From Gammaproteobacteria bacterium (lineage in GTDB: Bacteria > Pseudomonadota > Gammaproteobacteria > S144-34): a stretch of DNA of 20,000 nucleotides. Both the position numbers and the translations under genes were made by a program. Positions 10,195 through 11,817 of the stretch are shown here, one piece after another (position 1 is the stretch's first letter; each line of letters begins with the position of its first letter). Below the pieces are notes generated by a model. It had not been told where the DNA came from, searched no databases, and worked only from the letters and a program-made list of their open reading frames with translations. The stretch is from positions 1 to 20,000 of the forward strand of contig WFOW01000361.1 of the NCBI GenBank assembly GCA_015487895.1. Reading direction: 5' to 3'.

Positions 10195-10205
10195 GGCGCT
10201 CCCCC

Positions 10206-10709
10206 TCAGCCCGTGATCTCTTCGACCTTCTTGCCGCGCTTGGCGGCGATCTCCTCCGGCGAGCGCATGGAGGCCAGCCCCTTCATCGTGGCACGGACCA
10301 CGTTGATGGGATTGCGCGAGCCGATCGACTTGGCCAGCACGTCGCGCACGCCCAGCACCTCGAAGACGGCGCGCATGGCGCCGCCGGCGATGATGCCCGT
10401 ACCCTCGGAAGCCGGCTGCATGTAGACCTTGGAGGCGCCGTGCTCGGCGGTGATGGCGTAGTGCAGCGTGCGCCCCTCGCGCAGCGGGATCTCGCGCATG
10501 CTCTTGCGCGCCTTCTCCATCGCCTTCTGGATCGCCAGCGGCACCTCGCGCGCCTTGCCGTAGCCGAAGCCCACGCGCCCCTGGCCGTCGCCGACCACCG
10601 TCAGCGCCGTGAAGCCGAAGCGCCGCCCGCCCTTGACCACCTTGGCCACGCGGTTGACGGCGATGAGCTTCTCCTGCAGGCCGTCGTTGCCGGTCTCGCC
10701 GTTCGCCAT
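10206..10709 (-). CDS. rpsE: 30S ribosomal protein S5
   Basis: 167 residues, equal to E. coli. The protein affects decoding fidelity and mRNA helicase activity at the 30S entry channel. Diagnostic segments are [48 protein letters not shown], and [19 protein letters not shown]. The ATG at 10709 follows GAGAGG at nine bases. The upstream gap of 183 bases is filled by the MITE-like element; part of the ribosome-binding context overlaps the element's target duplication (10722-10725). Confidence 0.99.
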
Positions 10710-10725
10710 CGCTTGCTACCTCTCA

Positions 10726-10891
10726 GGAAACCCTGGTCGATCCGCTACGCGGATCGACCGGCGCCAAAGCGCTTCGCGACCATTCCGACTTTCGCTGAAA
10801 ACCGCCATGCACTTCCGTGTGCATGCACCGTCCCGCGGCCATTCCCGGCCGCGGGGAAGCCCCGAAGAAAGCGGACTTTTTCAGGGCTTCC
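10726..10891. mobile_element. 166-bp MITE-like element inserted between rplR and rpsE
   Basis: The ends are inverted repeats matching at 9 of 10 bases (GGAAACCCTG at 10726 and CAGGGCTTCC ending at 10891). The similarity resumes inward at TCCGCT on both sides, offset by one base. The flanks are direct copies of CTCA (10722-10725 and 10892-10895), a 4-bp target duplication. Inside lie perfect hairpins at 10735-10759 (11-bp stem, 3-base loop), 10806-10825 (7 bp) and 10832-10855 (9 bp), and a 9-bp stem joining 10854-10862 to 10884-10892. No open frame of note is present. Removing the element and one CTCA leaves 13 bases between rplR and rpsE including GAGG, a normal spacing. The parent transposase family is not identifiable here. 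Confidence 0.8.
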
Positions 10892-10892
10892 C

Positions 10893-11249
10893 TCAAAACT
10901 CCAGGCCGGCCTCGCGCGCCGCCTCGGCCAGGGCCTTCACGCGGCCGTGATACTTGAAGCCGGAGCGGTCGAAGGCGACGCGCGTGATGCCCTTCTCCTT
11001 CGCCCGCTCGGCGATGAGGCGGCCCACCACGGCCGCCGCCTCGCGGTTGCCCGTGCTGCGCAGCCCCTCGCGCACCGCCTTCTCGAGCGTCGAGGCCGCG
11101 GCGAGCGTGCGCCCCCCGTCGGGGGCGATGATCTGGGCATAGATGTGCCGCGGCGTGCGGTGCACGCACAGCCGGTAGGCCTTCAGCTCGCGGATCTTCA
11201 TCCGCGTGCGGCGCGCCCGGCGCAGTCTTGCGGCCTTCTTGTCGCGCAT
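10893..11249 (-). CDS. rplR: 50S ribosomal protein L18
   Basis: 118 residues (E. coli 117). It binds 5S rRNA with L5 and L25 in the central protuberance. Key blocks are [53 protein letters not shown] and [28 protein letters not shown]. It lies 43 bases after rplF. Its TGA stop is part of the TGAG target duplicated by the element that follows it, so the insertion left the reading frame intact. Confidence 0.99.
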
Positions 11250-11292
11250 CTGCCTCTACCCTCGTCGCACGGGGGCCTGCGCCCCTCCGCGG

Positions 11293-11817
11293 TCACTTCT
11301 TCTTGGCTTCCTTCCGGATGATCTGCTCGTCGGCGTAGCGCACGCCCTTGCCCTTGTAGGGCTCCGGCGGGCGCAGGGCGCGGATCTGCGCCGCGACCTG
11401 GCCGACCCGCTGCTTGTCGATACCCTTGACCACGATCTCGGTCTGGCTGGGCGTCTCGATGGTGATCCCCTCCGGGACCTCGAACTCCACCGGGTGAGAG
11501 AAGCCCAGCGAGAGGTTTAGCTTGCGCCCCTGGGCCTGGGCGCGGTAGCCCACGCCCACCAGCTCGAGCTTCTTCTCGAAGCCCTGGCTGACGCCGAGGA
11601 CCATGTTGTTGATGAGCGAGCGCATGGTGCCCGCCAGCGCCCAGGCGCCGTTGCGCGGCGCCACGCGCACGGCACCCTCCTCGAGCCGAACCTCCACGCT
11701 CTCGTGCACGTCGAGCTCGAGCGCGCCCTTCGGCCCCTTGACCGCCACGCGCTGGCCCTCGACGCGCACCTCCACGCCCTTGGGCACCACCACCGGCTGC
11801 TTGGCGATTCTGGACAT
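11293..11817 (-). CDS. rplF: 50S ribosomal protein L6
   Basis: 174 residues (E. coli 177). The protein lies near the factor-binding site of the 50S. It begins [20 protein letters not shown] and has the duplicated L6 fold, with [24 protein letters not shown] at the joint and [21 protein letters not shown] in the C-terminal half. It ends KKEAKKK-like (Lys-rich). It is 17 bases after rpsH. Confidence 0.99.

Follow-up and report, generated by a model that had tools for sequence, protein, structure and literature searches.

The 166-bp sequence lying between rplR and rpsE in the window (the 20,000-nucleotide stretch of DNA analysed here) very probably belongs to a high-copy family of the MITE type. 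The family was found here in a single genus; it would be moved by a DDE transposase acting in trans, and its folded sense strand is probably constrained. By architecture the element is of the MITE type: it is below about 500 bp and carries no transposase gene, it has terminal inverted repeats and a target duplication of constant length, and its family consists of dispersed copies with occupied and empty sites in relatives. The original prediction had described the element as MITE-like, and this reading was supported by the copies, by their 4-bp duplications and by the empty focal site.

The terminal inverted repeats of the focal element match at nine of ten positions, and TGAG, in the sense of the genes, flanks the element on both sides (Table 1). 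On re-reading, the coordinates, the 9/10 repeats and the CTCA/TGAG duplication given in the original prediction were all exact. The downstream TGAG runs on into AGGTAGCAAGCG and then the rpsE ATG. Because the target at this junction was TGAG, neither the rplR stop nor the rpsE ribosome-binding stretch was lost on duplication, and the claim that one duplicated TGAG includes the rplR TGA and the other feeds the rpsE ribosome-binding region was confirmed. Neither terminator-like nor promoter-like sites were detected when positions 10200-11300 were scanned. The insertion is presumably tolerated because both genes are intact with the stop and the ribosome-binding stretch both kept, because no such site was detected, and because the element lies in the favoured transcribed sense, a form that may be less harmful than the other, or useful. 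The insertion may also affect the expression of rpsE or the processing of the mRNA.

Table 1. Features of the rplR-rpsE junction in window positions, with sequences given in the sense of the genes.
Feature	Position	Strand	Description
rplR (ribosomal protein L18)	10893..11249	-	upstream neighbour, frame intact, 11249-10893
Upstream TGAG of the 4-bp target duplication	10892..10895	-	CTCA on the + strand; holds the rplR stop TGA (10895-10893)
MITE-type element	10726..10891	-	166 bp, in the sense of rplR-rpsE
Left terminal inverted repeat	10882..10891	-	GGAAGCCCTG, start of the element
Hairpin 1	10855..10891	-	12 bp including one U-G; arms 10891-10880 and 10866-10855
Hairpin 2	10833..10854	-	8 bp, CCGCGGCC / GGCCGCGG; arms 10854-10847 and 10840-10833
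Hairpin 3	10806..10825	-	7 bp, CATGCAC / GTGCATG; arms 10825-10819 and 10812-10806
Hairpin 4	10735..10759	-	11 bp, GGTCGATCCGC GTA GCGGATCGACC; arms 10759-10749 and 10745-10735
Right terminal inverted repeat	10726..10735	-	CAGGGTTTCC, end of the element
Downstream TGAG of the target duplication	10722..10725	-	CTCA on the + strand; leads into the native rpsE ribosome-binding stretch
rpsE (ribosomal protein S5)	10206..10709	-	downstream neighbour, frame intact, 10709-10206

Within its own genome (G000), a DNA search with the element returned the focal copy and 30 further matches of at least 127 bases at 74-83% identity, three of these shorter than 145 bases, and additional shorter pieces also matched. 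Copies were dispersed in all three genomes searched from the genus, a genus of uncultured bacteria (G000, G001 and G002), and among 37 relatives only these three members gave matches. A wider search of 369 genomes of the class, with two candidates scored per genome, returned matches in five genomes besides the three from the genus; these five matches, among the 366 other class genomes, were 22-39 bases long, with E-values of 1e-4 to 1e-3, and were taken as chance. With a covariance model, matches at E <= 0.01 numbered 112 in G000, 148 in G001 and 125 in G002; these are not copy numbers because palindromes match themselves on the other strand, pieces are counted and 150 candidates were scored per genome. 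We examined 110 distinct copies with their flanks (29, 52 and 29 per genome), obtained from 116 rows by dropping four duplicates and two rows without a flank; contig-end copies (L028, L029), divergent copies, long variants and unfetched covariance matches lie outside this set. Removal of a further 13 rows, 12 at sites shared with G000 and one of two copies in a single gap, gave a non-redundant set of 97 copies. The last of these removed rows (L181:708-871) represents a copy of its own that shares its intergenic gap with a second one; the two L181 copies (474-638 and 708-871, G001 contig C26) run in the same direction 69 bases apart and have long identical inner stretches.

All copies in one set of 50 measure 150-169 bp, and GG...CC ends are present in 70 of the 110. 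Full-length copies contain 52-69% GC compared with 72% in the fetched surrounding DNA, and are thus poorer in GC without being AT-rich; AT-rich sequence in AT-rich intergenic DNA is given as typical of MITEs in a review (PMC10969869). Long variants of about 290 bp form a subfamily (L163, L164, L005 at 690-977, L166 and L251-L255) with an insert of about 127 GC-rich bases separating hairpin 2 from hairpin 3, and sequence related to this insert also stands alone elsewhere in the genus. A second dispersed repeat of 126-bp tandem units, observed in G001 contigs C63 and C137 (L245 299-607 and L247 5141-5393), is partly similar to the same insert. The end repeat was found as tandem doublets or triplets with a unit of about 12 bp at L279 (116-170), L280 (1552-1574), L268 (1501-1535) and L006 (14-36), and L279 has a solo palindrome consisting only of the last hairpin and the two ends. 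A palindrome with the element's end repeats was also observed within a gene that we take to encode a threonyl-tRNA synthetase (L244, about 420-445, G000 contig C424), probably by chance.

Rfam returned no match in the window at gathering score, and assignment to a known RNA family was rejected, the matches being sub-threshold (CrfA, E = 0.96; mir-8834, E = 3.9). Plasmids and phages searched with the element gave no match at an E-value of 1e-5, and viral contigs contained no exact match to its 23-base core. A limited literature search found no report of a MITE in a ribosomal protein operon, and none containing the element's end sequences as text, so that the family seems to be unpublished.

An exact 4-bp target duplication flanked 55 of the 110 copies, with copy ends fixed by the covariance model, and 1000 shuffles gave 1.39 on average and never more than 7; the other 55 have no exact duplication. 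Identical flanks at lengths of 2, 3, 5 and 6 bases were observed in 11, 3, 2 and 0 of the 110 copies. In the non-redundant set, 47 of 97 copies carried an exact 4-bp duplication (10/29, 29/51 and 8/17 in G000, G001 and G002), at least three of the four flank bases matched in 62, and the remaining 35 fell below this level. This pattern is the mark of a 4-bp staggered insertion. We infer that a DDE-type transposase, supplied in trans, would recognise ends like GGAARCYCTGA and insert the element by cuts staggered by 4 bp. Additional copies that share these ends but differ in their 4-bp duplications, which the original prediction had looked to as a check, were thus found. The 55 duplications comprise 43 different 4-mers, with CTAA seen once, and on this ground a derivative of the IS5 group, whose target is 4 bp of the type CTAR/YTAR, was rejected.

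Several insertion sites could be compared between the genomes. Eleven G000 sites were matched by G002 copies at the element boundary, seven of them on both flanks, while no G001 copy matched a G000 site at the exact boundary and two pairs matched one flank at an offset; because the sample of copies is incomplete, the number of shared sites is a lower bound. One further site, between genes that we take from their translations to be alaS and lysC, is filled in G000 by the short form and in G002 by a form with 127 extra bases inside the element, and is empty in G001. A third site (L040) is not a simple empty site, with about 750 bases between the flanks in both relatives.

The perfect hairpins noted in the original prediction were borne out, with four hairpins in the element and folding beyond chance on both strands of a 174-nt stretch (z of -6.6 and -5.8; 0 of 200 dinucleotide shuffles in each case). 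The sense RNA would be a string of hairpins with conserved pairing, probably because the folded sense strand is constrained. Among 51 distinct sequences, standard pairs occupied 98.9% of paired cells. Changes on both sides of a pair were observed in 12 of 41 pairs (43 cells), compared with shuffled means of 3.5 and 10.6 and with at most 6 and 7 in slid versions, these counts being inflated by the relatedness of the copies and drawn from an alignment fitted to the tested structure; the other 29 pairs showed no such change. Hairpin 1, which is the left terminal repeat followed by an inverted copy of itself, had 7 of its 12 pairs changed on both sides somewhere in the family, hairpin 3 had two of seven and hairpin 4 (helix 5 of the covariation count, next to the right end) had 3 of 11. 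Hairpin 2 had none, and with five of its eight pairs invariant it is hardly a test.

A single transition within a pair appears as G-U when the folding strand is the sense strand, and as A-C when it is the opposite one. In the 97 non-redundant copies, leaving aside a 3-bp helix, we counted 70 G-U and 21 A-C cells; the ratios by genome were 20:9, 47:13 and 4:1, and all 41 pairs gave 92:24. Hairpin 3 was even (5:5). The equivalent transitions at unpaired positions were also skewed, at 272:182, so part of the G-U excess is mutational; the skew in paired positions is larger (Fisher p = 0.002). This control used 105 rows from two alignments, including a few duplicate or truncated ones, and took columns filled to 80% or more in which the majority base reached 70% or more. 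Counted by columns and summed over the two alignments, the result is weaker (44:16 compared with 55:39, p = 0.08), and none of these p-values is exact because the copies share ancestry. Compensatory changes together with a G-U excess on one strand suggest that this strand folds as RNA, and we regard the comparison of copies as moderate evidence that the sense-strand RNA fold is constrained.

The direction of the copies relative to genes was also biased. Gene neighbours, on which the orientation count rests, were taken from a simple codon-usage gene caller that recovers the spc genes of the window, and a gene overlapping a copy by no more than 20 bases was treated as its neighbour. A total of 105 of the 110 copies lay outside called genes, and the other five overlapped one by more than 20 bases (42-82); for comparison, coding sequence made up 91% of the window and 81% of L001-L050 according to a similar caller. 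Fifty copies were located between co-directional genes, 40 of them in the sense and 10 in the antisense direction (p = 2.4e-5), and the same bias was observed in the non-redundant set (34 compared with 9, p = 1.7e-4). The focal copy has the favoured sense direction. Twenty-three copies lay between divergent and 11 between convergent genes, and 21 had no called neighbour on at least one side. Within 20 bases, and with redundant rows included, a gene start was met by the right end of the element 21 times and by the left end three times, while a gene end was met by the left end 18 times and by the right end five times. Of the 23 copies between divergent genes, 16 had their right end as the one nearer a gene start, at p = 0.09 only. 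A terminator does not explain the orientation bias, because terminator-like sites were present in 13 copies in the sense and 11 in the antisense direction, and no promoter-like site was detected in the 110 copies. Taken together, the strand-biased pairing and the orientation bias make a constraint at the RNA level plausible.

The hairpins may instead be kept as DNA palindromes, through recognition by the transposase, template switching during replication or gene conversion involving arms and copies, with the orientation bias arising from an asymmetric target preference of the transposase. The composition of hairpin 1, a terminal repeat with its own inverted copy, is in keeping with such an origin, as is the structural turnover observed in the long and short forms at the alaS-lysC site and in the extra tails of two G002 copies. 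The duplicated targets are indeed asymmetric, with C at position 1 in 4 of 55 and G at position 4 in 2 of 55. However, the symmetry of a DNA palindrome predicts equal G-U and A-C apart from mutation bias, whereas the paired cells are skewed beyond the unpaired control, and the direction bias persists among copies separated from each neighbour by over 25 bases (17:6, in a hand count that includes shared sites). We consider an explanation at the DNA level rather unlikely, although we give it appreciable weight.

A second alternative is that the copies have been domesticated and are selected beside gene starts and ends as sense-strand RNA modules, serving as an mRNA stabiliser, a processing site or a translation buffer. 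The sense bias, the contacts of the right end with gene starts and of the left end with gene ends, and the conserved pairing would all be consistent with this, as would the identity of the 11 shared pairs, 95.7% between species compared with 86.9% for 150 random pairs. However, few of the examined sites are shared, 11 between G000 and G002 and none with G001 at the exact boundary in an incomplete sample of copies, and purifying selection against a harmful orientation gives the same bias. Domestication of the copies therefore appears to us unlikely.

The history of the focal site itself could be read from its relatives. Both congeneric genomes have an empty rplR-rpsE site, reading GAGTTCTGA, GAGGTAGCGAGCG and ATG with a spacer of 13 bases, and since both are empty the insertion is lineage-specific, gained after the lineage of the window split from both relatives. 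Removal of the 166 bp and one TGAG from the window leaves a 13-base spacer that differs from that of the relatives by one base, as compared by eye; the original prediction had arrived at this length by excision in silico, and it is the length of both empty sites. Spacers of at most 32 bases were found in 105 of the 110 rplR-rpsE loci measured, a set in which the locus of the window is counted and one contig of G002 occurs two times (L052, L081). Longer spacers were seen at five loci, namely the window (183), L067 (156), L087 (85), L092 (83) and L093 (45), of which the L087 value is probably a start-codon artefact of the locus script. The 156-base spacer at L067, in an unrelated genome of the class (G014), is rich in GC palindromes and is possibly an independent insertion at the same junction.

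These observations bear on whether the spacer is a leader or regulatory RNA that the spc operon acquired by vertical descent, as its structure, its place within a ribosomal protein operon and its transcription sense might suggest. Such a leader RNA was rejected on the empty sites in both congeneric genomes and the copies elsewhere in the genome, and two further results stand against it: spacers are short in 105 of 110 loci, and Rfam gave nothing at gathering score and at best a sub-threshold E of 0.96. We regard it as very improbable. The original prediction had named the same spacer in distant relatives, with no copies elsewhere, as the pattern to be expected of inheritance, and this pattern is excluded. 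A repeat wrongly joined at a contig break is conceivable in a draft of 437 contigs, but it is scarcely credible for a copy located midway along a 20-kb contig, with both adjacent genes intact and a clean 4-bp duplication of sequence seen in the empty site of the relatives.

No autonomous partner with the element's ends was found by PF01609, PF13546 or end-pattern scans, in draft assemblies that may lack such an element, and the transposase gene with the same inverted repeats that the original prediction had in view was likewise not found in the three draft genomes. PF01609 matched two proteins, one in G001 and one in G002 with none in G000, and both have other ends; PF13546 gave no match in the three genomes. 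The G001 protein, at a contig end, has ends GGGGCTGTTGAAAAA and is presumably an IS1182-like transposase (L161), and the G002 protein has ends GAAGCTATCTCAAAAAT as read by eye and is presumably IS5-like (L162). The exact pattern GGAARCYCTGA had 71 matches in G000, 68 of them at family copies as we read the positions, and its reversed control had none; the remaining matches were C310:1006 and the pair C424:919/934. A filtered end pattern, which misses elements whose base 17 is C or T, gave 27 matches in G001 and G002, most beside known copies as judged by eye, and the four isolated places that were retrieved were full, partial or solo-hairpin pieces of the family. Scanning of 149 of 189 loci from viral contigs gave, among the matches listed, five end-pattern pairs with matching 4-base flanks. 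One of these five (L382, 12481-12643) is a 163-bp single-hairpin palindrome of another architecture, with TTAA flanks and ends GGAACCTCTAAACAAG / GGAAGCTCTGAACAAG, which is possibly a distant relative of the mobilising system.

Among known repeat families, Correia elements have TA as their target; the family described here was rejected as a Correia element on its 4-bp rather than 2-bp duplication, and differs also in its several separate short hairpins. REP/BIME and ERIC sequences resemble it as repeated palindromes, but to our knowledge REP elements lack terminal repeats with target duplications, and the exact 4-bp duplication distinguishes the family from REP/BIME. In the review (PMC10969869), Correia elements of Neisseria are described as MITEs of about 200 bp, with more than 120 copies in N. 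gonorrhoeae and transcripts cut by RNase III at the terminal repeats, and ERIC inserts at gene 3' ends are noted as able to change transcript levels. The same source describes QMITE1 and QMITE2 of Coxiella burnetii (45 and 78 copies, with full lengths of about 400 and 190 bp) as gammaproteobacterial MITEs with a predicted structured transcript (PMC10969869); compared by description only, they belong to another lineage. The nearest precedent noted there is the Chunjie MITE of Geobacter uraniireducens, which is 178-235 bp long with conserved terminal and direct repeats, has one copy in an operon, and has 37 further intergenic copies and 57 partial ones (PMC10969869). Chunjie-1 is said to disrupt one of two phosphate uptake operons, and the title of the original Chunjie paper, as it stands in the reference list of the review, speaks of an operon structure that is not disturbed (PMC10969869). 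Likened by that description alone, Chunjie is similar in having tens of copies with one in an operon; unlike in Chunjie as described there, the operon is here the essential spc operon and relatives with empty sites are shown.

A further and doubtful proposal is that the spread of the MITE has produced a co-transcribed RNA module selected on one strand, with a sense transcript that folds into conserved hairpins and with copies kept in the sense direction at gene starts and ends, and that the rplR-rpsE copy has recently rewired this essential ribosomal operon in a way that would change the S5:L18 output or mRNA processing. The focal insertion provides a clean natural case of a mobile element in an essential, tightly regulated operon, with no gene broken and two sister genomes that still have the empty site. 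With dozens of independent insertions across the three genomes, it becomes testable whether selection acts on the hairpins of bacterial MITEs as RNA or on the DNA alone, since a cause at the DNA level predicts equal G-U and A-C, mutation bias aside, and a cause at the RNA level would give a G-U excess on the transcribed sense. The strand-biased RNA constraint is the part of this family worth testing.
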